Part shown: in pieces, positions 46,403 through 57,933 of the stretch
Position numbering within the stretch: the first letter of the stretch is position 1
How the letters are laid out: each line of letters opens with the position of its first letter
From: Pseudomonas synxantha BG33R
Lineage (GTDB): Bacteria; Pseudomonadota; Gammaproteobacteria; Pseudomonadales; Pseudomonadaceae
Direction of reading: 5' to 3'
Length of the DNA: 64,000 nucleotides
NCBI RefSeq assembly: GCF_000263715.2
Contig: NZ_CM001514.1
Coordinates: 4,529,674-4,593,673, forward strand
Translations under genes and position numbers: made by a program
The notes under the pieces: generated by a model
Databases searched by the model: none
What the model saw: the letters and a program-made list of their open reading frames with translations, nothing else
Told to the model about the DNA's origin: nothing

Positions 46403-46482
46403 GCGTTATGGAGGCAACCCCACCAGCCACACCCCGGCACACAATGTTCCCGCTGTGGCTGCTGCCTTCCGGCTCTGACCAG
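46403..46482. repeat. attL: displaced 3' fragment of ffs (80-bp direct repeat)
   Basis: This 80-base sequence is identical to 57816-57895. On the reverse strand it is the 3' portion of 4.5S RNA, from CTGGTCAGAGCCGGAAGGCA through the apical loop to the closing GGGGTTGCCTCC, but without the 5' strand. It marks the left end of the integrated island. Confidence 0.93.
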
Positions 46483-46612
46483 ATGGCATGCAAGCATGCT
46501 CGGATATCGTTGAAAGCCATATGGGATAAGGGTAACAGGCTTTTGAGGTTGTCTCTAATCTTCCGTGCCAATACCCGGTACGGACAGTCAGAAATCGGGG
46601 TGTAGCCAGCAC

Positions 46613-46717
46613 TGTCACACATCGGTGTCACACATATGGCCTACATAATCCGTCGCGGGGCTTACTACTATCTGAATCTGCGACTGCCCAAACATCTCTT
46701 CCCGAGCTGTCACACAT
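46613..46717. promoter_or_regulatory. Three TGTCACACAT repeats, candidate integrase arm sites
   Basis: TGTCACACAT occurs at 46613-46622, 46626-46635 and 46708-46717, with a 9/10 match (TGTCACACTT) at 57765-57774 near the other end. Repeats of this size close to both ends of an element are typical of tyrosine-integrase arm-type binding sites. The second copy ends at the base before the integrase ATG and the third lies inside the gene. Confidence 0.55.
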
Positions 46718-47928
46718 TGCGCTTGAGTTTGAATATCAGCACCCGACAACCGGCAACCTTCCTTGCGTCCTCGCTGGCTCAACGAGTCCATCACTACCTG
46801 ACAGAACATCCCACAGCCGAGCTTGAGACGCTTCGCTTGCTCTGTTCTCAGTGGCGTGACACTAGCCCCACACCTTCAGTTCCTGAGCGCCCAAGCGGCT
46901 CCACAGAGCCTCAAACGCTTCGCAGAAAAGGTGGGCCGACTCTCGCTGAGCTCGCGAAGAAGTACATCAAGGAAGGCAAGGCTGGGGGCACATGGCGAGA
47001 GGTCAGCACTCACGAAGTTGAGCGCTCATTGCGGGACCTGTTCGAGCTGATGGGCGACATGTCCGTTTCCGCGTTCGACGCGCAGCAAGCTCGCCTACTG
47101 AAAGATCGTCTAAGCCTTTGCCCTCAGTATTTCGCCCTCCTCCCTCAGTTCAAGGGCAAGACGTTAGCTGAAGTCATTGAAGCAGGCGGCACGTACAAAA
47201 CCATCACCGCCGTGACCGTGAATAACCGTCTACGCAAGCTCTCGGCATTCATGAATTGGTGCAAGTCGAATGGTTACGTTACCGAGAATCCATTGATGGG
47301 ACTCAAGGTGATGACGGGTTCAGCCAAGGAAGCACGTCTGTCTTTTGAACAACATGACCTAAGAACCCTGCTCAATTTGGAAGCACTCAAGGCTGAAGCC
47401 CTTAAACATCCTTGGCGGTACTGGTTGCCGCTCCTCGGAAGGTTCACAGGTGCCAGATTGGAAGAACTCTGTCAGTTACACGTTGCTGACTTCATCAAGT
47501 TGCAAGGAGTAGATTGCATACGGATCGACGATGGTCACGAGTCTCAGAAACTCAAGAACAGCAGCAGTCGCCGGACGCTACCAATACATCCCGCGCTGAT
47601 TGAGCTTGGAATGCTCGACTACGTGAACGCTCAGCGTACTCAAAACTCAGATCGTTTATTCCCCGAGCTGGAACCTGTACGCGGAAAACTGGGCCACGCC
47701 CCGTCAAAGTGGTTCAGTCGGTATCGGACCAAAATGGGTATTAACGACCCCAAGAAATCATTCCATAGCTTTCGTCACACAATGATTGATGATCTGCGTG
47801 AAGCACAGGTACAAGACTCCCTAATCAAGCGTATAGCGGGGCACGAAGACGCCGCTGTGACCTTTGGTGTTTACGGTAGTCGTGTTCCCATCAAAGCAAT
47901 GGCCGAAGCTTTGGCACACATATCTTGA
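46636..47928 (+). CDS. Tyrosine site-specific integrase
   Basis: The 430-residue recombinase has an N-terminal arm-binding region and a core-binding domain. Its catalytic domain shows Arg in FTGARLEELCQL, HxxR in FHSFRHTMID, a second His in AGHEDAAVTFGVYG, and Tyr in the same FGVYG segment as the nucleophile. It starts at ATG 46636, 154 bases inside attL. It should mediate insertion at and excision from ffs. A directionality factor of the AlpA type was not found. Confidence 0.93.
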   Translation: MAYIIRRGAYYYLNLRLPKHLFPSCHTLRLSLNISTRQPATFLASSLAQRVHHYLTEHPTAELETLRLLCSQWRDTSPTPSVPERPSGSTEPQTLRRKGGPTLAELAKKYIKEGKAGGTWREVSTHEVERSLRDLFELMGDMSVSAFDAQQARLLKDRLSLCPQYFALLPQFKGKTLAEVIEAGGTYKTITAVTVNNRLRKLSAFMNWCKSNGYVTENPLMGLKVMTGSAKEARLSFEQHDLRTLLNLEALKAEALKHPWRYWLPLLGRFTGARLEELCQLHVADFIKLQGVDCIRIDDGHESQKLKNSSSRRTLPIHPALIELGMLDYVNAQRTQNSDRLFPELEPVRGKLGHAPSKWFSRYRTKMGINDPKKSFHSFRHTMIDDLREAQVQDSLIKRIAGHEDAAVTFGVYGSRVPIKAMAEALAHIS

Positions 47929-47941
47929 GCCTCGCCCTAAC

Positions 47942-47961
47942 TTGACTGAGTAATCCTTGAG
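47942..47961. repeat. 20-bp repeat shared with the right end of the island
   Basis: TTGACTGAGTAATCCTTGAG lies just after the integrase stop. The sequence at 57783-57802 differs by a single base. Position near both ends hints at a second protein-binding site for excision or integration. Confidence 0.55.
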
Positions 47962-48015
47962 GATGCGGAAAATCAGATCTAGATCACCAAAGTCAGCCAA
48001 GTCAACAAATATTTA

Positions 48016-48044
48016 TTGCAATGCGAACAAAACACAAGTATAAT
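48016..48044 (+). promoter_or_regulatory. Sigma-70-type promoter of the helicase leader
   Basis: TTGCAA and TATAAT are separated by exactly 17 bases, a strong housekeeping promoter upstream of the structured leader at 48074-48132. Confidence 0.7.
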
Positions 48045-48073
48045 ACGACCCGTTATTAGATAGGCCGACATTG

Positions 48074-48132
48074 AAAGCCTCCACGCGACCGTCAAACCGA
48101 TTCGAGTTTGGCGCCTTGCAAGGGGGCTTTTT
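48074..48132 (+). ncRNA. Structured leader RNA, possibly C4/CI-like antitermination-type element
   Basis: AAAGCCTCC (48074-48082) pairs with GGGGGCTTT (48122-48130), which is followed by T residues. Inside it CGTCAAAC (48090-48097) pairs with GTTTGGCG (48106-48113). Together they form a closed hairpin structure ending like a terminator, about 30 bases downstream of a strong promoter and 80 bases before the gene start. The layout recalls small immunity RNAs of phage P1 (C4) and P4 (CI), which lie in the leader of the gene they control. That identity is a suggestion, not shown. Confidence 0.5.
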
Positions 48133-48211
48133 AACGCCTGCGATTTACTAAAACCAATCGGCAATACCCGAGGTAACGCCAATGAATTGAACTAACTAAG
48201 GAGAACATGGA

Positions 48212-49660
48212 ATGAATTGCATCACCCGCATTAAACCAATCTTTACCGCTATCGCTGCCCCTGGAGCAGGTAAAACTGAAGCGTTGCTGTCGAGCCTTCC
48301 AGCCATTCAAAAAACAGGGCGGCCAGTAGTTCTAGCTCTTCCGACTCTCGTCCTTATCGACCACATCGCAGAACGCGCTTCACAGGCTGGTATCCCCTTT
48401 CGGATCGTAGATAATCGCAACGGGGAACGCGTTGCTCCTGAGCTGGAGGCCGCCCTTCAAGATAAGTGTAATTCCTTCATCATATGCACTCAGGAGGCCA
48501 TTAGACGAGTACGGCATTCGCTGCTGCATGACTGGACTCTCATTATTGACGAAGTGCCCAAGGTGGTTGACTACCCTGACTACGCCCTGAATCCGACAGA
48601 ACTCAGCCGTGTACTCGATTACACCGAGGAGGCAAACGGTCAGCTTTGGATCAAGGAGGAGTTCAAACAAGACGTCAGGGACCAAGTGAGCACCAATCGT
48701 GCAGATTCGGTGGGGATTGATTGCTCCACCCTAGGCACCCCAGCAGCCCACATCTTCCGATTGCTATTGAGCGAAGTAACCGTCTTCATCGATCAGCCTC
48801 AGAAAAACGGCATTCGCCACGTACGTGCAGTGGAGGAATTTCTGGATTGGTGGGACATCTTGTCCTCAGCAGATGAAGCACACGTACTGGCTGCGAACAT
48901 CGCTGGGGGCGAGTTTGAGCTGCTCGCCCAACTCCACGGGTTCACCTTCAAGAAGTCGATGTACGCACCTGAGACCGGACACTACACCAGTCCAGTGACC
49001 ATCTACCCGATCATGCCGAAGGGGCAAATTTTCAGTAAAGCGAAGATGAACGCCGATCAGGAGAACAACAAGCTCTATGACCTTGCACTGGATGCCATCC
49101 TCAGGGAAACCAGTAGCAATCCGCTCCTCTTTGCAAACTCATGGGTCAGACACAAAGAGAAAGGGCGAGTGCAGCAGGTTCAAATGGACTGTCGCGGTCT
49201 GAACGGATACGACTCCGCGACGGAAGCCATCCTGTTATTTGGTGGCAACCCTAGCCCTTCAGACATGAAGGGGCTGGAGTACCTGAGCAAAAAATATAGC
49301 CAAGATTTGCAGGTGATGCAGACCGCATTCGTCACCACCAGACTACTGGAACCGTCCCTGCAAGCGGTGACCCGAACGGCCATCCGCCGTATGGACACCA
49401 CAAGCTCGATCCGGCTGTATGTACAGGACGAGCGAGTTGCACGATATCTGATGGAAACGTATATGCCTCATGCAGTGGTTGATTGGTCCGTGAGCAAGAA
49501 AATCCCAGTCAAACCGGATGGCAGGAGAAAGGAGCACTCTCAGAAGCAGGCAGCACTAGCGCTCGTCAAAAAAGACGTTCCGGATAAAGAGATTGCACGC
49601 AGACTAGCTGTTAGCCCAAAGACCATCAGAAACTGGAAAAGGGGCTCAATTGCAGCCTGA
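48212..49660 (+). CDS. DEAD/DEAH-like ATPase with C-terminal helix-turn-helix
   Basis: The 482-residue protein has Walker A in IAAPGAGKTEALL (about 15-27) and Walker B IIDEVPK (about 112). The C-terminus, ALVKKDVPDKEIARRLAVSPKTIRNWKRG, is a helix-turn-helix of the resolvase/transposase type. The combination suggests a replication or origin-melting protein of the island, or a regulator with ATPase activity. AAGGAG stands 8 bases before ATG 48212. Two two-codon reading frames (ATG AAT TGA at 48182 and ATG GAA TGA at 48207) precede it, the second overlapping its start. The leader carries a structured RNA. Confidence 0.75.
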   Translation: MNCITRIKPIFTAIAAPGAGKTEALLSSLPAIQKTGRPVVLALPTLVLIDHIAERASQAGIPFRIVDNRNGERVAPELEAALQDKCNSFIICTQEAIRRVRHSLLHDWTLIIDEVPKVVDYPDYALNPTELSRVLDYTEEANGQLWIKEEFKQDVRDQVSTNRADSVGIDCSTLGTPAAHIFRLLLSEVTVFIDQPQKNGIRHVRAVEEFLDWWDILSSADEAHVLAANIAGGEFELLAQLHGFTFKKSMYAPETGHYTSPVTIYPIMPKGQIFSKAKMNADQENNKLYDLALDAILRETSSNPLLFANSWVRHKEKGRVQQVQMDCRGLNGYDSATEAILLFGGNPSPSDMKGLEYLSKKYSQDLQVMQTAFVTTRLLEPSLQAVTRTAIRRMDTTSSIRLYVQDERVARYLMETYMPHAVVDWSVSKKIPVKPDGRRKEHSQKQAALALVKKDVPDKEIARRLAVSPKTIRNWKRGSIAA

Positions 49661-50484
49661 GACATTACTCAAATAAGGGGGACCTTTCCTAAGTAGTCCT
49701 TTAGGATTGCTCCCCCCCCCAATTTCAGATCAAAAGCTGTGGTGGGCTTCGCTTTCCCACCTCTGTAAAAGCATTCGCCTTCGGCTCACTTGCGTACACT
49801 GATTGCTGGAGATTTAAAAATCTCTAGAGTTCACTTCTGATTGCCAATCAGAACATGTCAGCAATCCCCTGTGTGAGAACATACAAAAATAAGTTTGAAT
49901 AAGCTTCAGGGAGTCTAACCTAAATAGATATTCGGGAAGGGCAAAAAGGAGATGGGTAAACAAGCATTAGCTCTTGCTGTTAACTCCTAACCTTTAGCAA
50001 TGAGTAAAATAAGTTCTATATCCCATATACGATGACGACACCTGCTAGCCCCTGTGACCATACATGAGACCAATTACAGCCAAAGCCACACCATCCATCA
50101 TCTGACCAACTATCGGCACCCAGTTGCGCTCAGAGAGCCTCCGTGAAAGTGGTGTACCAATATGGCGAACAACTCACAATCAGGCGGTATATCAGGAGAG
50201 TTATCAGGAGTGACAGTGATAGCTACATACCAGAATCGATGCCTAAGCATCGCTGCAGCCTTGACTTTTACTGATCTTCAGACTTTTTAGGTTAAGCACG
50301 ACTGCGTTCCTCCCTGACTCCAATGTTTACGCTTACATTCGGTTGAAAGCAGGAAGAAATTCGCGAGCCCAATACGAAGATGAAGGTTGAAATACAACCC
50401 TGTAGATTATTACGCTCAGTCCTCGCGACGATAATGACAACAGCAGGTGAGGCTGTTGTCATGGGCAGAATATAAATGCTAGCT
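49661..50484. other. About 820 bases without a gene, hairpin-rich
   Basis: No ORF with coding character is seen on either strand. Right after the helicase there is a stem TCCTAA...TTAGGA within GGGGGA...CTCCCCC (about 49677-49715), a plausible terminator with a run of C. Hairpins at 49741-49761 (GGTGGG...CCCACC) and the nested set at 49801-49866 follow. The remainder (49870-50484) shows scattered short repeats of TATCAGGAG but nothing I can name. Confidence 0.5.
49801..49866. other. Nested hairpin cluster (three-way-junction-like)
   Basis: GATTGCTG (49801-49808) pairs with CAGCAATC (49859-49866). Between them lie two perfect hairpins: GAGATTT-AA-AAATCTC (49809-49824) and TTCTGATTG-C-CAATCAGAA (49835-49853). 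The arrangement could be a replication origin, a recombination site or a structured RNA. Confidence 0.55.
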
Positions 50485-50841
50485 CTACATGAAGTCCTTG
50501 GAGGGAATGTACGAGTTGACGATAGGTGCGCTATAGCTCCGGCTAGAGCAGGTCACCTTGTAGACAAGCTCATTTTCCTTATCGCGCTCATTAGCCTTCA
50601 TGAGGGCAAGCCCTTTTCCCGTCTGAGTGCAAGACAAAATATCGTGCATGTAGATATGACTTGTTTTCTCCGTGACTGGAAACTCTGTGCAGTAGGAATT
50701 ATCAGGCACGCAGAGTTCAAGCTTGAGAGAATACAGGTCTGTAGCGCCTTGTACGGATGAAAGCTTATTACCGGCTTGTGCTGCTTGAGCACACAAGATA
50801 GTGATGCCCAACGTTATTGCTACAGCTGAGGAGTTTTTCAT
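50485..50841 (-). CDS. Small secreted hypothetical protein
   Basis: The 118-residue product has a signal peptide (MKNSSAVAITLGITILCAQAAQA) and a mature part with four or so Cys (LELCVPDNSYC, ILSC, VTC), which suits periplasmic disulphides. ATG 50841 with AAGGAAC upstream is preferred over an ATG five codons earlier. It is divergent from the XRE regulator, and the shared spacer contains the tandem operator. No family recognised. Confidence 0.65.
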   Translation of the reverse strand: MKNSSAVAITLGITILCAQAAQAGNKLSSVQGATDLYSLKLELCVPDNSYCTEFPVTEKTSHIYMHDILSCTQTGKGLALMKANERDKENELVYKVTCSSRSYSAPIVNSYIPSKDFM

Positions 50842-50901
50842 AATTGTTCCTTTCATGACTGGCTGCCGCCCTCACCGATGACTGCGCAAAAAACTCATAA
50901 T

Positions 50902-50931
50902 ATCTGAAAATCAGATATCTGGAAATCAGAT
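50902..50931. promoter_or_regulatory. Tandem palindromic operator
   Basis: Two abutting 15-base units, ATCTGAAAATCAGAT and ATCTGGAAATCAGAT, each have perfect 5-base arms ATCTG/CAGAT. They lie between the divergent secreted-protein gene and the XRE regulator gene and are a good candidate for the autoregulatory binding site. Confidence 0.7.
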
Positions 50932-50968
50932 ATATCTTTCGAGGCTGACCTTTCCGAGACAGCCCGCC

Positions 50969-51220
50969 GTGCCCAAGACAATCTATAGACCGGAACACGC
51001 TGCACTGCTTTCACTCCTGAGAAAATATAGGAAGGCATCCGGACTGACTCAGGTGGAGTGCTCAAAGGCGCTGAATCGCCCACAATCGTTTATGAGTGAC
51101 GTCGAAAGCGGCACACGCCGTTTAGATATCGTACAACTGCGGGATCTCTGTGCGGTGCTAGGAGTCAGTCTTTGCGAATTGGTGGAGGAGTTGGAGAAGG
51201 CGATTAAGGCGAGCAATTGA
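50969..51220 (+). CDS. XRE-family (Cro/CI-like) transcriptional regulator
   Basis: The 83-residue protein is essentially one HTH_3 domain (LLRKYRKASGLTQVECSKALNRPQSFMSDVESGTRRLDIVQLRDLCAVLGVSLCELVEEL). It starts at a GTG at 50969, the only start that keeps the full domain. The tandem palindrome 38 bases upstream suggests autoregulation and control of the divergent gene. Confidence 0.85.
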   Translation: MPKTIYRPEHAALLSLLRKYRKASGLTQVECSKALNRPQSFMSDVESGTRRLDIVQLRDLCAVLGVSLCELVEELEKAIKASN

Positions 51221-51401
51221 TTCGGCCAATGATGGCTGAATTATGATCACCAATTCTGCGACGCGACAAGCCACAGTGGAACCTTATGGATAAACATCCT
51301 TCGATCACTTCCGCCCCCCCCCAAAGCTTCGTCACTTAGCATTATCAAAGGACTCTAGCTCTCCGATAGTCAGCAGTCAGTCCAGCGCCCCTGCATTTAT
51401 T

Positions 51402-51434
51402 TATCAAAAATCTATTCAAAATAGACTATTGATA
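51402..51434. repeat. 33-bp imperfect palindrome upstream of resolvase
   Basis: TATCAAAAATCTATT and AATAGACTATTGATA are inverted arms (13 of 15 paired) around CAA, 46 bases before the recombinase start. Size and position fit a resolvase binding site (res subsite) or its operator. Confidence 0.6.
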
Positions 51435-51480
51435 ATTTATCATTGCTCTATCAACTTAATAAACCAAAGGATAGTCAGCC

Positions 51481-52101
51481 ATGAATGCCCACCTTTATCT
51501 CAGAGCCTCGACCAAAGACCAAGATGCCAATCGTGCGAAAGCAGCCCTTGAGTTGTTCGCTGCCGAGAAAGGGTTGAGCATCGTTGGCGTGTATGCGGAG
51601 AACATCAGCGGAACCAAGCTAAATCGTCCTCAACTGCTTGCTCTGCTCGATACTGCCGAGAGTGGAGACATGCTATTGGTAGAGTCTGTAGACCGCCTGA
51701 GTCGCCTCTCACAAGCTGACTGGGACACGCTCAAGGGCACGATCAAGGTTAAGGGGTTGCGGCTTGTTGTAGCTGACTTGCCTACCAGTCACATGCTGGT
51801 TGAAGCGAAGGGAATAACTGGGCAAATCATGGATGTGATCAACAACATGTTAATTGATCTTATGGCGACCATGGCACGGCTAGATCAAGACAAACGTGTG
51901 GAACGAATCAAGCAAGGGTTAGAGAACAAAAAGCTTGCAGAGCCGAATTGGAAACCATTGGGTAAGGGGCGGAATACCAAGTTGTGGAATCAGGTGAAGT
52001 CACTGATGGCTCAGCATCCAACAATGTCTGCTGAGCAGGTTGCAAAGCTCGCTGATTGTGGTATTGCAACGGTGTACCGGATCAAGCGCGAGTTCGCCTA
52101 A
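51481..52101 (+). CDS. Serine recombinase (resolvase/invertase family)
   Basis: The 206-residue resolvase has the catalytic Ser in YLRASTKDQDANRAKAAL (Ser10), the VESVDRLSRLSQADW motif with conserved Asp-Arg-Leu-Ser-Arg, and a C-terminal helix-turn-helix (MSAEQVAKLADCGIATVYRIKREF). The size is typical for small resolvases that act on adjacent res sites. It may resolve dimers of the excised island or invert DNA. No inverted gene pair was noted. CCAAAGGATAG precedes the ATG. Confidence 0.9.
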   Translation: MNAHLYLRASTKDQDANRAKAALELFAAEKGLSIVGVYAENISGTKLNRPQLLALLDTAESGDMLLVESVDRLSRLSQADWDTLKGTIKVKGLRLVVADLPTSHMLVEAKGITGQIMDVINNMLIDLMATMARLDQDKRVERIKQGLENKKLAEPNWKPLGKGRNTKLWNQVKSLMAQHPTMSAEQVAKLADCGIATVYRIKREFA

Positions 52102-52468
52102 GTCTCAGAGTGCGGTGATAAAGACTAGGCGCAGTAGTGGCTTCGGGATCAATTACAAGTAATCCATACTCGATCTACCAAGGCTCACACACAGAATGAA
52201 ACAGCTACCACTCAGGGATTTGGTGATTATGAGGCCGTCCCCGTGTATATAGTAAGCCCCCGTCAAGCGCTGGCGACCAACATCCAATTCCCCTACACCC
52301 ATCTGCTGGATTTCAATACTTCGAACATATGCGCTCAACCTGAAATCAGGCTTTCAAATTCGAAGGGATTTAATCTCTTGAGGAGCATGTGACGTCGTGA
52401 GCAAAATTTAGCTCCACCGCTCAGTGTTTGAGTAATATATCGAATGTGTTCTGACCTGCATCTTAGTA
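52102..52468. other. Spacer between resolvase and reverse transcriptase
   Basis: About 370 bases between convergent genes. A 61-codon reverse ORF is present but has no coding features. No strong terminator was identified. Confidence 0.35.
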
Positions 52469-54199
52469 TCAACCTACTACGAGTGTTGATTGATATTCCT
52501 TGAGAACCTTAAAAACTTCGGAAGTGCACACAAACTCGTTCGTCCCTTCTGGATCACCAGCGGCGCCACGCCTAATCACGCCCACAACGTGCTGATTAGA
52601 ATTTACTAGTGGTCCTCCGCTATTTCCGCTATAAACCACTTTATCGATACTGCCGCATTCGATGGTAGACCTAATATATTTACCACTTACCGCGGCCCAG
52701 AATCTACAAACATCAGTAGACCCAATTTTGAAATTAGGGAACCCCAGTACCGATACCTTATCCCCTATCTCGACTTCCAAATTTTCCTCCAAACGGAAAA
52801 ACTCAAATCTTTCGTCTGTCTGATCTATAGACACTATAGCTAGATCACGATGCTTGTCTAAAAATATCGCTTTTGCTGAATATTTTTTTGCTCTCTCATT
52901 CACCCGATGTACTACGCAATCTTTAAATAAAACCTCATCGCAATTATTTTCAATCGCGTACTCTATATCTGAGTCAATCTTTTCACTCAATTTATAATTA
53001 AATGCGTGCGCACAAGTAATCATTAGATTATTTTCAAGCATGAATCCTGTTGCCTGAGTCCCCCATTGTTCATTTTCAATAACCCAACAGCGACGTATAT
53101 TCAACTGATTGTGTTTCATCCCTGCATCTTCATGCACTTCAACGAACTTCGCTAGAGGGGCTTTGTAAGGCGTCTCAAGCTGATTGAAGCGCATCGCCAA
53201 ACGCCTATACACCGGAGAGTCCACACCTTTAACCTGATGAATAAATAAAAGTCGACCAAAAACATGCGCAGATAACTCGCTGGACGACTCAGGCGACTTC
53301 GCTTTATGAATAATATTCGCTTTATCCACACCAATAATGAAAAGCGAATGGATCATAGCTGAAGTTTTACGTATGTATCGTCGATCAACATTAACTTTTT
53401 GATTAACAACCAAACCAGTGACAACCTGTTTTTCATCTCGTCGCTGAAGTCTTACTTTTTTAGAGTTTATCTTAAAGCCTTTCTTTGAAATAATCTCGCT
53501 CAGCACGGTACCGACAGAAACTACGTGATGTGTTTTCCCACCCTCTTTATCATCCAGCACTACAATATCTTCTGGCAAATAAAGCATAGGAACATAAAAA
53601 GAAAAGGTAATATCATCTGCATATCTAGTATAGCTCGCCTTATGTTTCTTCGCGAGAGTGCGCAACTGCGTATCTAGAGAAGCGCAAATCATGTTAGATA
53701 TAACAGGAGAACAAGGTGAGCCTTGTGGAAGCTTTCCATCAACGGTTGCTAAGTGCGCAATTACTGTCGCGGTTTCCGGGGTTAAGCTATAGGGCTTACT
53801 TATTAGCATAGCTCGCACGCGAGCGAATGTGATAGAAGGAAAAAAATCCTTCAGATCTATATTGAATACAAATTTCTTACGAGTGTGAAAGGTTGCATTA
53901 CGAACAATTGAGGAATTACTTAAAAATGCAGTAGCACGCGGATTGGGTTTATATAGAAATGAAAGTTGGCGAGCCAGTCTCTTTTGAAGAACCTTTAAAT
54001 GATTGTCTGGTGCCGAAATTTGTCGTTTGCCACCGTTTTTTTTAGGAATGGAGAACGTACTATAGTGGCTCGCCACGCGCCTACTATAGTAAAAATATTT
54101 AATCTTTGGATAAGTCGTGCCAAGAATATTAGCTAGGTCATCTACATCTGACTCACTAGTCAGCCTCAAACTCTCGTCGACTGAAGAGCCCTCGTCCAT
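52469..54199 (-). CDS. Retron-type reverse transcriptase fused to trypsin-like serine protease
   Basis: The 576-residue fusion has a reverse-transcriptase half (about 1-320) with the retron-specific NAxxH motif (RNATFHTRKKF), palm motifs FNIDLKDFFPS, QGSPCSPVISNMI and catalytic YADD in TRYADDITFSF. It also has the retron VTG motif in KQVVTGLVVNQ. The C-terminal half (about 375-570) is a trypsin-like protease with a complete triad: His in MITCAHAF, Asp in HRDLAIVSID and Ser in VYSGNSGGPLVNS. Retron RTs make msDNA from an adjacent RNA and act in anti-phage toxin systems; RT-protease fusions are known in that group. The upstream spacer holds a candidate msr-msd RNA. All catalytic residues are intact. 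Confidence 0.9.
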   Translation of the reverse strand: MDEGSSVDESLRLTSESDVDDLANILGTTYPKIKYFYYSRRVASHYSTFSIPKKNGGKRQISAPDNHLKVLQKRLARQLSFLYKPNPRATAFLSNSSIVRNATFHTRKKFVFNIDLKDFFPSITFARVRAMLISKPYSLTPETATVIAHLATVDGKLPQGSPCSPVISNMICASLDTQLRTLAKKHKASYTRYADDITFSFYVPMLYLPEDIVVLDDKEGGKTHHVVSVGTVLSEIISKKGFKINSKKVRLQRRDEKQVVTGLVVNQKVNVDRRYIRKTSAMIHSLFIIGVDKANIIHKAKSPESSSELSAHVFGRLLFIHQVKGVDSPVYRRLAMRFNQLETPYKAPLAKFVEVHEDAGMKHNQLNIRRCWVIENEQWGTQATGFMLENNLMITCAHAFNYKLSEKIDSDIEYAIENNCDEVLFKDCVVHRVNERAKKYSAKAIFLDKHRDLAIVSIDQTDERFEFFRLEENLEVEIGDKVSVLGFPNFKIGSTDVCRFWAAVSGKYIRSTIECGSIDKVVYSGNSGGPLVNSNQHVVGVIRRGAAGDPEGTNEFVCTSEVFKVLKEYQSTLVVG

Positions 54200-54262
54200 A
54201 TTTCACCCTATTCACTTCGAGTTATCCATTCAGCGGACCATTAGCAGAACGCTGAGCAGTTG

Positions 54263-54514
54263 CTTGTAGCATTGTTCCTTATGGTCGCATTTAAATCAAC
54301 CAAGTTTAATCCCGGACGAGGGCAATGAGACGTTAGCATGAAAGCTTCAGCAAATCTAGAACTACAGAGCCACCGGTAGAAAAGATTTCACTCTCGCAGA
54401 AGTCGCCACAGTGCCCCAGCGATCAGGAGCACGATGGCGTAGCTCCACCTAAGATGCTCCGGACCGACAGCGGGCCGCGACTACAGAGTACAACCCAGCC
54501 TTAACAACTACAAT
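54263..54514 (-). ncRNA. Candidate msr-msd retron RNA
   Basis: The 380-base gap upstream of the RT, on its strand, has no ORF but strong structure. Segment 54402-54481 folds into a long hairpin with paired GTCGC/GCGAC, GCCC/GGGC and GGAGCA/TGCTCC. AACAACTACAAT (54503-54514) can pair with CTTGTAGCATTGTT (54263-54276), apart from a 2-base bulge and one end mismatch, like the a1/a2 repeats that bracket retron RNAs. AT-rich AATATATTATATAG at 54545-54558 (reverse strand) would be a -10 region. The hairpin is flanked by a direct repeat ACTACAGAG (54361, 54480). Boundaries are approximate. Confidence 0.6.
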
Positions 54515-54579
54515 AGCTAGTAAAGAAGCGACTGAACCATTTCTATATAATATATTGCTCGGTAGTCCGTCGCTGGATT

Positions 54580-54933
54580 CTAGCTTGTAAACCAAACATT
54601 CTCCCTCCCGTTGTAACCATAATATTTTTCTTTGAAAGCTGCCATGCCTGCAACATATTGAGAAAGCATCAAGACAACATCACTATTCTGAGGAATATCA
54701 TCCTCATCAAATAAATCTAGAAAATCCATTGACGCTTCTCCGACCAAAACCTCGCGCACGCGCTCAAGAAGCCTATTAACAATTTTTACTTTCCCTTTAC
54801 TGAGAGCCGCCTCAGGCTTTTTCTTACTCAACTCCTTAAACTCTTCGTACATTGATTGCAACAGCGGCTTGGTAACTTCGTACAGTTCCGCCTGCTGATT
54901 ACTGATCGTTAACTCACCTTTCTTCATACTCAA
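54580..54933 (-). CDS. Small hypothetical protein, paralogue of the next upstream gene
   Basis: The 117-residue soluble protein is helix-rich (LYEVTKPLLQSMYEEFKELSKKKPEAALSKGKVKIVNRLLERVREVL) with the motif FDEDDIPQNSDVVLMLSQYVAGM. Its neighbour at 54930 carries the same pattern (LSKKSPNDALNKFKLKFVNSLL, FDVDDIPQNSDVVFILAQYIQ), so they arose by duplication. Start ATG overlaps the upstream stop by 4 bases. Last gene of the four-gene operon. Family not recognised. Confidence 0.8.
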   Translation of the reverse strand: MSMKKGELTISNQQAELYEVTKPLLQSMYEEFKELSKKKPEAALSKGKVKIVNRLLERVREVLVGEASMDFLDLFDEDDIPQNSDVVLMLSQYVAGMAAFKEKYYGYNGRENVWFTS

Positions 54934-55334
54934 TCCTTAAGATTTTTTGGTTTTACGGTGCGGATCCATATATGGCCTTTGTCATCACCTACTTCCCCTG
55001 GAGCCGCTTCCAGTCGCCAACTCCATCCACCATTACGGAGAGCGACATTGTCTGCACGTAGCTTTTCAAAACATTGGATATATTGAGCGAGAATAAAAAC
55101 CACATCACTATTCTGGGGAATATCATCCACATCAAAGACTTCAAAGTCTAGAAATGGTCTATACCTATCAGTTAAAAACACGTTACTTTCTGCCAACAAC
55201 GAATTAACAAACTTCAATTTAAATTTATTCAGAGCATCGTTTGGGCTTTTCTTTGAAAGAACGGACAATTCCTCATACGTACTGATTAATTGACCAGAGA
55301 GCTTTTCAAACACATCCACGTCTTTTCTATTCAT
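54930..55334 (-). CDS. Small hypothetical protein, paralogue of the next downstream gene
   Basis: The 134-residue protein shares the SKKxPxxAL, VNxLL and DDIPQNSDVV motifs with the downstream gene product. It then has an extra C-terminal segment with aromatic and charged residues (NGGWSWRLEAAPGEVGDDKGHIWIRTVKPK). It starts 11 bases after the nuclease gene stops. The pair could form a heterodimer, for example regulator and effector. No known domain seen. Confidence 0.8.
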   Translation of the reverse strand: MNRKDVDVFEKLSGQLISTYEELSVLSKKSPNDALNKFKLKFVNSLLAESNVFLTDRYRPFLDFEVFDVDDIPQNSDVVFILAQYIQCFEKLRADNVALRNGGWSWRLEAAPGEVGDDKGHIWIRTVKPKNLKD

Positions 55335-55345
55335 AAATACTCACC

Positions 55346-56716
55346 TCAAGATGGGCATGCACGTCGAAATTCGATATACTTTTTCTTTAAAACATCTAAG
55401 GGGCTACGCTGCTTACTTTCGTAAAGTGCAACCATTAAAGTTAGGTCAGCGTCAGTAACGGCGATAATACACTTTCTCTGCGCCGACCATAAATCGATGG
55501 TATTTTGAAACATCACTTTGGGGAGATCATTCCGAGTTAAAAACACACCGAAAGACCCAAAGCCTCCTTGCAAATATCGATTCAGCTGGTTTATATGATC
55601 ACGTTCTATTTTCGCAACGTTTTTCATTTCAAACACCAATTGCCGACTGCCGAACTCCGAAAAAACCTCGTCTAAAAAATCCACATCTCTATTATTATAG
55701 AACACCAAGTCTCTCACATGTCTGCCGGACTCAGTTCTGCTTTGCTCTACCGCAAAGTCCAGATTAGGGTAAAACAATGAGGCGAGGAGCTCAGAGCAGA
55801 GTTTTTCGTACTTCCAATCAGCACCATCTTCCTTACCTGATTTTAGTTTAAGTATTTCGTCCAATTTCCTTTTAGCTGACAATACAGGTATCTGGCTAAA
55901 CAAAGGATCATTAACACAGTCCGCTGACTGCCTAACTCTATTTGCTACGTAATCTTCAACCACGCCATAATTGTCTCGATTGTAATTTAAAACCTGAACA
56001 CGCTCGACAGCTTCGCCCGGGTTAAAAATTTCATCACGAGGGCAATATGACTGGAAATAGTTATCGTAATTTATCCACGGAGAAAATCGAAGCCACCTCT
56101 TCGGAGTAAATATAATAGGCTCTTTTGTCTCAGGATTGACAGGCAAATAAACTTTTTGATTAACCAAGAGCTTATTCTCTCGGTAACCGTATATCGAATC
56201 AAGAACCACCCCTTCTAATGGTATACCATGAACTTCACACTGAGAAACCGTATAATCAATTAAAAACGACTTTATGAAATTACAAGCTATATCACTCACC
56301 CGATCTTTTGAAACGCCACTCACATACAACTGAATAACTTCAAAATGCGTAAAACCAAACTTACTATAGCTTTCAATTCGTGAAAACAAATTAAGTACCT
56401 CTTGAGCATAGCTTCTACCCAAACGTACTCCGCGCCTATTTTTTGAAACCCCCAATCCAACCTCAGGACACTCTGAGATGTTAATTAACAGCTCTAAAGC
56501 ATCTGTTTCTTTTCCTTTCTTCAAAAGGAAGTTTAGGTGATTAAACGAATTTACAATGGTTGTATGTAGTGATTGATCCTGCAGAGAAGGAGACTTCCAA
56601 AGTAAAAAGGGATCAATATAAAGAGGAATATCTTCATCAAAAAACTGAACAGCAAAATCTAATTCGGACTGCCCCTTGTAAATACCATGATAATCCGTCA
56701 AACGTGGCCTCAACAT
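55346..56716 (-). CDS. PD-(D/E)xK-nuclease-like protein of the four-gene operon
   Basis: The 456-residue protein has a long N-terminal region without known motifs (opening MLRPRLTDYHGIYKGQSELDF). The C-terminal part (about 300-440) reads like a Mrr-type PD-(D/E)xK fold: Glu in DWKYEKLCSELLASLF, Asp in GRHVRDLVFYNN, ExK in QLVFEMKNVAKIERDHINQLNRYL, and the Q/N-helix after it. ATG 56716 follows GGGGTG with 4-5 base spacing and is 14 bases after the upstream stop. A longer in-frame start would overlap that gene. It may be the DNA-cutting effector of a defence operon. Confidence 0.72.
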   Translation of the reverse strand: MLRPRLTDYHGIYKGQSELDFAVQFFDEDIPLYIDPFLLWKSPSLQDQSLHTTIVNSFNHLNFLLKKGKETDALELLINISECPEVGLGVSKNRRGVRLGRSYAQEVLNLFSRIESYSKFGFTHFEVIQLYVSGVSKDRVSDIACNFIKSFLIDYTVSQCEVHGIPLEGVVLDSIYGYRENKLLVNQKVYLPVNPETKEPIIFTPKRWLRFSPWINYDNYFQSYCPRDEIFNPGEAVERVQVLNYNRDNYGVVEDYVANRVRQSADCVNDPLFSQIPVLSAKRKLDEILKLKSGKEDGADWKYEKLCSELLASLFYPNLDFAVEQSRTESGRHVRDLVFYNNRDVDFLDEVFSEFGSRQLVFEMKNVAKIERDHINQLNRYLQGGFGSFGVFLTRNDLPKVMFQNTIDLWSAQRKCIIAVTDADLTLMVALYESKQRSPLDVLKKKYIEFRRACPS

Positions 56717-56729
56717 AAACACCCCGAGC

Positions 56730-57551
56730 TTATTCCAACCTATACTTTCTAAAGGCCACGTACTTTGTAAATCCAAACTTTATATATGGCTTCCCATTAC
56801 TTGCTTGAAACGCAACGCCCACCACAATAAAATCAGCGCCTTGCAACTCATCAACATCCTTCAATCGAAAATCCTCAATGAGCTGATCTTCCAGCTCATC
56901 ATCATCAATTAAAATACTTGGCTCACGTTTATAGTTACCACAGTTCAGCCAAAGAACTCCATTCTGCCTATTGACATTATTTATTCTTCCCCAAAATATT
57001 TTTGGCTCACCTAGAGGTGCGACTGATATATTGCTCTGTGAAACTATATGATCTGCAAGCGGCCCCTCAAGGACAACCCTCCCGCCATCCGCAACCATTC
57101 TTACAAGTTTATCAGAGCTTGGGAAATCGGGGTCACGACCAAGGCTTGTCAGTATTTGTCGAAGTGACTTGTTTTCTGGGTAATCACCAACGCTTGAATA
57201 CTTTCTAGTAACACCCCAATTAGATTCTTTCTTCGACTTTGACTGAGGCACAGCGACATCAATGGTTTGCTTACGCTGCTTATCTAAATCTATATTAATT
57301 GCAGATAAAGCACCTGGAGACGCAATACCGTCATCATCTGGAATTAGGGTTATCTTATTACCACACCCATCGATATGATGGGCTGCGAAGCAAGGCGCTC
57401 GATAATACTTTTCAGTCGTAAATCCTTTAACAAACCACGATTTTTCTTGGCAAATATCGCACGCAATATTGCCCCGATAAAGCTCGGGGTTTTGTTGATA
57501 CAACAGAACGGTACATTCCGTTTGATCTGGCACGTAACAAACGTATTCCAC
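56730..57551 (-). CDS. Zn-ribbon-containing hypothetical protein, first gene of the operon
   Basis: The 273-residue protein has a putative zinc site, CDICQEKSWF...CFAAHHIDGCGN (about 31-65), followed by a basic Ser/Lys linker (QSKSKKESNWG). A domain of about 130 residues follows with segments such as GRVVLEGPLADHIV and PKIFWGRINNVNRQNGVLWLNCGN, consistent with nucleic-acid or nucleotide binding, though no named fold is recognised. The start is GTG 57551 and no ATG in this frame lies close by. It is the promoter-proximal gene of a four-gene unit running toward the retron. Confidence 0.7.
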   Translation of the reverse strand: MEYVCYVPDQTECTVLLYQQNPELYRGNIACDICQEKSWFVKGFTTEKYYRAPCFAAHHIDGCGNKITLIPDDDGIASPGALSAINIDLDKQRKQTIDVAVPQSKSKKESNWGVTRKYSSVGDYPENKSLRQILTSLGRDPDFPSSDKLVRMVADGGRVVLEGPLADHIVSQSNISVAPLGEPKIFWGRINNVNRQNGVLWLNCGNYKREPSILIDDDELEDQLIEDFRLKDVDELQGADFIVVGVAFQASNGKPYIKFGFTKYVAFRKYRLE

Positions 57552-57815
57552 TTAGCCATCCCCGCCAAATGACGCCAGAGGCGTTCAAATTGTTACTTAA
57601 TCGGGATATGCAAATCCCTGCATAGCGCAAGGTTAACAGCTACACAGTGAAAGCGATATGCCATCGCCAGTGACGGTAGGAGGAATCTTCGATGACAGGA
57701 TAGGGTTAGTCTGAGCCATGGGTTAGCATGTTCAGAGATGCACCACTTAGGTGTACTTAGACGTTGTCACACTTCGAGATTTTTGACTGAGAAATCCTTG
57801 AGAATTCAAGGACTT
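57552..57815. other. Right end of the island, candidate recombination sites
   Basis: This 260-base spacer has no gene. It holds TGTCACACTT (57765-57774), the 20-base end repeat (57783-57802), and a perfect inverted repeat TCCTTGA-GAAT-TCAAGGA (57795-57812) directly before attR. Confidence 0.55.
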
Positions 57816-57895
57816 GCGTTATGGAGGCAACCCCACCAGCCACACCCCGGCACACAATGTTCCCGCTGTGGCTGCTGCCTTCCGGCTCTGACCAG
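57816..57895. repeat. attR: 80-bp direct repeat within the complete ffs
   Basis: Identical to 46403-46482. It forms the 3' part of the intact 4.5S RNA gene, whose 5' part continues to about 57933. Confidence 0.93.
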
Positions 57896-57933
57896 GTTCA
57901 CGGGTAATCGTTGCGGGGGGACCGATGGGGTCA
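57824..57933 (-). ncRNA. ffs: Signal recognition particle 4.5S RNA
   Basis: The reverse strand reads GACCCCATCGG...CTGGTCAGAGCCGGAAGGCA...GTGTGCCGGGGTGTGGCTGG...GGGGTTGCC. The segments GGTCAG, GGAAGGCAGCAGCC and GTGTGCCGGG match the conserved asymmetric loop and tip of bacterial 4.5S RNA that bind Ffh. The 5' ACCCC and 3' GGGGT strands close the helix. It pairs with Ffh to target membrane proteins. The gene is essential, and the island has supplied its 3' end, keeping it intact. Ends are approximate. Confidence 0.9.

Follow-up and report, generated by a model that had tools for sequence, protein, structure and literature searches.

The DNA analysed here, a 64,000-nucleotide stretch of the Pseudomonas synxantha BG33R genome (the window; all coordinates are positions within it), contains on its reverse strand a gene for a reverse transcriptase (RT) fused to a trypsin-like protease. 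Genes of this RT-protease kind are already recognised in bacterial phage defence but have been little studied. The gene and its parts are as follows:

52469-54199, reverse strand: RT-protease fusion gene, 576 amino acids, ATG start, retron type XI (ORF, Pfam, PADLOC)
53150-54199, reverse strand: RT half, about residues 1-350
53612-53623, reverse strand: YADD catalytic motif, residues 193-196
52490-53122, reverse strand: protease domain of HtrA/Deg-like trypsin fold, about residues 360-570
53006-53008, reverse strand: codon of catalytic His398 (role by homology)
52844-52846, reverse strand: codon of catalytic Asp452 (role by homology)
52619-52621, reverse strand: codon of catalytic Ser527 in the motif GNSGG (role by homology)

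The earlier note on this DNA had placed a retron RT with NAxxH, YADD and VTG signatures and a protease with a full His-Asp-Ser triad in a single chain, and all of this was borne out. The open reading frame occupies exactly 52469-54199, and Pfam assigned RVT_1 to residues 51-253 (E 3.5e-17) and Trypsin_2 to residues 383-541 (E 1.9e-15). The RT motifs are NATFH (101-105), YADD (193-196) and VTG (260-262), a set of the type given as a retron hallmark in PMC12405507, and the triad His398/Asp452/Ser527, assigned by homology, sits in the C-terminal trypsin-fold domain.

On the other hand, the novelty implied in that note was too strong. The best PADLOC match was RT-Protease_XI (E 4.5e-174, residues 14-567 of 576), while the RT-TIR (XII) and RT-Toprim (I-C) models matched the RT part only. 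Because the type XI model spans the fusion nearly end to end, the architecture was already known, and PMC12405507 lists a protease among the domains fused to retron RTs. Judged by its sequence, the gene is a member of retron type XI, an established type and not a new kind. It shares with that type the organization as a single gene (retron RT plus C-terminal trypsin-like protease), the RT motifs, the intact C-terminal triad, the protein profile and the lack of a constant partner gene, and we found no difference at the protein level. An adjoining ncRNA with a1/a2 inverted repeats and an msr hairpin is also predicted; PADLOC includes msr-msd models, as stated in PMC9252829. What is added here is where the predicted RNA lies and that it overlaps the RT start codon, both read from sequence.

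The predicted structure of the fusion (mean pLDDT 89, pTM 0.62) consists of two well-predicted domains joined by a short low-confidence linker (residues 354-359). The RT half matched retron Eco2 and the remainder matched HtrA/Deg proteases (DegP, DegS, Deg2 and Deg9, with 14-23% identity in those structure matches); in contrast to HtrA proteases, the BG33R protein has no PDZ match (Pfam, E 0.001) and its protease is fused to an RT. In Eco2 (Ec67; type I-C, RT-Toprim), the nearest relative to have been characterised, the effector is a Toprim RNase, whereas here the C-terminal Toprim is absent and Trypsin_2 stands in its place. Residues that contact msDNA or catalyse in Eco2, as given in PMC12405507, have counterparts in the alignment (Eco2/here: F46/F49, H281/H284, K245/K248, R247/R250, Y199/Y193 and D201-D202/D195-D196), but the msDNA contact R184 is not conserved, with Q178 in the BG33R fusion.

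To describe conservation we used the best 120 of the 6611 proteins that reached E 0.001 or better among 7995 scored candidates. His398, Asp452 and Ser527 were identical in 120/120 of these relatives, both YADD aspartates were kept in 119/120 (the remaining one is a fragment), and N101 and H105 in 118/120 (the exceptions are fragments). In a narrower alignment of 84 sequences, the BG33R protein and 83 of the listed relatives, VTG, the two YADD aspartates and the NAxxH residues N and H were kept in 84/84, the Y and A of YADD in 83/84 and the A of NAxxH in 81/84. As many as 116 of the 120 listed relatives exceed 520 amino acids, and full-length fusions among the matches listed reach down to 42% identity, which argues that the fusion is not a chance product. 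Pseudomonas accounts for most of the names given among the listed relatives; relatives beyond these 120 will include RTs without a protease.

The position six residues before Ser527 varies among the aligned relatives (E, V, T, D, N, M), and the pocket therefore does not point to one P1 specificity of the protease. We found no report in the open-licence PMC literature of what the protease cuts or what triggers it, in agreement with the earlier statement that its substrate is not established. One candidate substrate would be the fusion itself: the main target of the protease might be its own chain or the RT complex, for example if it cut the linker for protease release or complex turnover. A low-confidence linker between two well-predicted domains is what such a reading would expect, but the linker is variable among aligned relatives and no cleavage site was identified, and we consider this role quite improbable.

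The gene is carried by an integrative element at the SRP RNA gene (57831-57927), and one of the repeats that bound the element lies partly inside that gene:

46403-57895, no strand assigned: integrative element with the retron, 11.4 kb, between 80-bp perfect direct repeats (46403-46482 and 57816-57895)

The integrase of the element is encoded at 46636-47928. GC content is about 38-53% inside the element versus about 55-63% on either side, and is lowest around the retron and the PDC-M36 genes. One relative (L189) lacks the element: both of its flanks and a single copy of the repeat fall within 4.2 kb, with about 0.6 kb unmatched between the flanks. In another (L190), the sequence after one repeat copy has no match in the element.

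Several other genes of this region were noted. PDC-M36A and two tandem PDC-M36B genes, candidate defence genes in PADLOC with no Pfam match, lie directly upstream of the retron (54580-56776), and the two PDC-M36B genes have a common 57-bp stretch at 86%. The start of PDC-M36A is overlapped by a gene for a 273-aa protein (56730-57551) without a match in Pfam, PADLOC, NCBIfam or PHROGs. A Resolvase-type serine recombinase (51481-52101) is encoded next to the retron, in addition to the tyrosine integrase of the element. A DEAD-helicase-like protein with a C-terminal HTH (48212-49660) matches phrog_2467, a family with no function assigned there, and two short stretches, at 49707-49722 and 51309-51324, resemble each other and contain runs of nine C.

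RT-protease genes are rare. They were present in 5 of 398 genomes of the genus (E 1e-120) and in 5 of 398 genomes of the family (E 1e-80; one of 19 genera), BG33R's own being counted in both, and further genome draws gave no new match. Neither plasmids (limit E 1e-90) nor phage records (limit E 1e-60) contained a match to the RT-protease. Ten of the 41 RT-protease loci compared below are on viral contigs, and an eleventh entry, L086, corresponds to locus L167; the genes on viral-classed contigs are L086-L090, L096, L099, L100, L103, L105 and L107. These copies suggest that RT-protease genes are carried by prophages.

To look for a partner gene, 493 ORFs from 41 RT-protease loci were compared all against all. 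The set omits duplicates or shorter copies (L001, L082-L086, L174, L175, L176 and L186) as well as L170-L173 and L177-L185. Searches (tblastn, span, Pfam) confirmed the protease domain for 40 loci; in the remaining one, L055, the tested piece ends before the domain, whose assignment rests on the span. The loci are not all independent, L090/L100 and L048/L055/L099 being close relatives, and both L051, which is apparently split over two ORFs, and L168, which has an internal TAG, were kept. No neighbour family was common to more than 3 of the 41 loci. Two groups occurred in three loci each, one adenine methylase-like and the other including recombinase-like proteins (judged by eye), and 15 groups were common to two loci. 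None of BG33R's 13 neighbouring ORFs had a homologue next to the RT-protease gene at any of the 40 other loci. PDC-M36A and both PDC-M36B genes were thus rejected as parts of the retron.

Of 120 nearest-neighbour proteins listed for these loci, 106 were also scanned, and 25 of 91 Pfam and 25 of 194 PADLOC families are listed. Among these, the commonest Pfam family was Resolvase (3), and the PADLOC families, with one member each, included restriction-modification, Gabija, CBASS, short Argonaute, DISARM, PD-T7-1 and other retrons. Such neighbours bear on whether the RT, RNA and protease might be conserved to serve housekeeping or a mobile element instead of phage defence. That reading could draw on the position of the gene inside an integrative element with its own integrase and on the fact that no phenotype is known, but the neighbours across loci include unrelated defence systems and the distribution is rare and scattered, and it appears very improbable to us.

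Because no neighbour family recurs in more than 3 of the loci, the fused protease alone qualifies as a constant effector candidate, and no conserved neighbour can be its substrate. This weighs against another alternative, that the protease is not itself the killer but a proteolytic switch: once triggered, it would cleave and so activate a proenzyme from a separate gene, in the manner of the trypsin-nuclease pairs known from Hachiman, AVAST, Lamassu and DRT. According to PMC12799240, fused trypsin-like domains do act so in other defence systems, and the PDC-M36A/B genes upstream are candidates for such a partner in the BG33R locus. The likeness lies in a trypsin-like domain fused to a defence protein; in those pairs the protease is N-terminal and beside a nuclease gene, whereas here it is C-terminal with no constant partner found. 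No metallo-beta-lactamase match was present in nine window proteins (Pfam, E 0.001), and for the other loci a rare case could be hidden, since the view covers 25 of 91 matched families. With the PDC-M36 genes lacking homologues at the other loci, the substrate would need to be encoded elsewhere, and we find this switch unlikely.

Directly upstream of the gene we identified a 136-nt element with the predicted plan of a retron RNA, namely a1/a2 repeats, one msr hairpin and a variable msd:

54188-54323, reverse strand: predicted retron ncRNA (msr-msd), a1 to a2, 136 nt (covariation, covariance model)
54314-54323, reverse strand: repeat a1, 10 nt
54188-54197, reverse strand: repeat a2, 10 nt, comprising the G of the RT start codon (54197-54199) and codons 2-4
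54283-54301, reverse strand: msr hairpin, 5-bp stem and 9-nt loop, nearly invariant in the Pseudomonas set
54226-54259, reverse strand: variable hairpin, presumed part of the msd (fold; role by analogy to Eco2)

An upstream RNA had merely been assumed in the earlier note, and the covariation now supplies a candidate. In the upstream alignment of seven Pseudomonas loci, a conserved block of about 125-140 nt ends at the RT start, and an eighth locus shows the same. Over these eight loci a1 and a2 pair in 98.7% of 79 cells, a percentage biased towards structure because the two arms were picked by eye for complementarity before the count. Seven of the ten a1/a2 pairs have two-sided changes, and choosing arms by eye does not by itself create matched two-sided changes at fixed columns. 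None of 500 shuffles reached the values for pairing or two-sided changes, and sliding the partner by 1-3 columns as a control cut the pairing to 35-56%. RNAalifold recovered a1/a2 and the msr hairpin unaided from the trimmed Pseudomonas alignment. Since the msr hairpin is almost invariant over the eight loci, covariation says little about it. The branch G and the limits of the msd are inferred from position and from Eco2.

A covariance model recovered the eight loci on which it was trained. It also gave weak matches at the expected place in L087 (E 0.059) and in L004 (E 3.1); weak matches in L088 (E 0.99) and L014 (E 1.8) were not at the gene start where expected and were rejected. In a scan for stems at the gene start, 27 of the 41 RT-protease loci, including Bacillota and Alphaproteobacteria, had a repeat reached by no more than 1 in 100 shuffles, and 14 missed this cut. 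The BG33R locus itself (3/100 shuffles), L002 (12/100) and L187 (13/100) did not pass this single-sequence test; the true arms of L187 contain a bulge and differ from the stem chosen by the scan. For six alphaproteobacterial loci, the RNAalifold consensus comprised a1/a2 plus two hairpins, one with two compensatory pairs and the other long, in an alignment where parts of a1 are out of register. The same stem scan on other RT loci (120 of 124 evaluable) gave 66 of 120 at 0/50 shuffles, as expected for retrons generally.

The whole upstream region, folded alone, was no more stable than shuffled sequence (z -0.56), and no msr was matched in Rfam at gathering thresholds. At a1 of the BG33R locus we saw no convincing promoter; scored matches lay beside a1 in three of the eight loci (L166, L169 and L187), and a conserved promoter at this place was therefore rejected. 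DNA patterns of the element were also sought: in viral contigs the msr-hairpin pattern gave four matches without an RT (L170-L173) and one known locus, and the 3'-end pattern gave nine loci without an RT (L177-L185) and the same known locus.

Taken with the fused protease, the predicted RNA points to a standalone type XI retron, in which an RT-RNA-DNA complex would cage the protease, a phage trigger would free it, and proteolysis would stop the phage. We consider this reading likely. The transcript would begin near a1 and contain the msr-msd RNA followed by the RT-protease frame. By position and comparison with Eco2, the RT would bind the folded RNA, prime from a G beside a1 and copy about 65-75 nt into msDNA, and the HtrA-like protease would be held inactive or caged by the resulting complex. 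A phage product might then degrade, modify or bind the msDNA and release the protease, which, again by analogy, would cut host or phage proteins so that phage growth stops. The earlier proposal of an effector freed when phage disturbs the msDNA-RT complex thus finds its backing in the analogy with Eco2.

Proteolysis is the likely final act. HtrA relatives serve protein quality control as well, so an HtrA-like fold is no proof of a killing role. In Eco2, as described in PMC12405507, msDNA holds three fusions together as a self-inhibitory trimer; the effector domain is toxic by itself but not within the full fusion, and DenB, a phage nuclease, is the proposed trigger. HtrA proteases also work as trimers, and a DegP trimer was among the structure matches of the predicted model. 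By analogy, a threefold RT-msDNA frame with three HtrA-like heads is an attractive, if hypothetical, arrangement. With its likely RNA partner located, the mode of action of a protease retron becomes testable, and the RNA interval obtained from covariation is what is needed to express the complete unit.

The position of a2 relative to the gene adds a further aspect. In the BG33R locus and in L166, L167, L168, L002 and L003, a2 starts at the last base of the start codon and covers codons 2-4; in L169 and L187 it immediately precedes a TTG, the likely start, and L169 also has an upstream GTG. With a2 inside the frame, compensatory changes fall in coding positions. This would account for M-[DNSG]-[GE]-G as a recurring start of the protein; of the 116 long relatives, 61 fit a loose version of this pattern. 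RNA folding may in addition hinder translation of the fusion, as far as computed pairing indicates: opening the ribosome site costs 14.4-23.6 kcal/mol in the eight loci and 7.4-13.4 kcal/mol with a1 held unpaired. The effect of freeing a1 was small in L167 (2.2 kcal/mol) and L002 (1.1 kcal/mol), and for L002 and L187 the computed probability of the expected a1/a2 register was low (0.01 and 0.40, respectively).

It is possible, though on balance doubtful, that in this lineage the retron RNA acts as a translational gate for its own toxin, the a1/a2 fold giving the msDNA template with the start closed and the unfolded form being translated. The N-terminus M-[DNS]-[GE]-G would then be kept as a2 instead of for protein function, and antitoxin template and toxin synthesis would be tied in cis. 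If true, such a gate would show co-regulation of a toxin and an antitoxin RNA that act via one polypeptide. The distance from a2 to the start, taken as the in-frame ATG nearest a2, had a median of 5 nt in 34 type XI loci (hand-picked from 42, with L034 added, eight weak-stem loci dropped and the weak-scoring L002 kept) versus 18 nt in 74 other RT loci, which were chosen by stem score and not individually typed. In L168, the RT-protease relative with the internal TAG stop, the RNA element is apparently intact.
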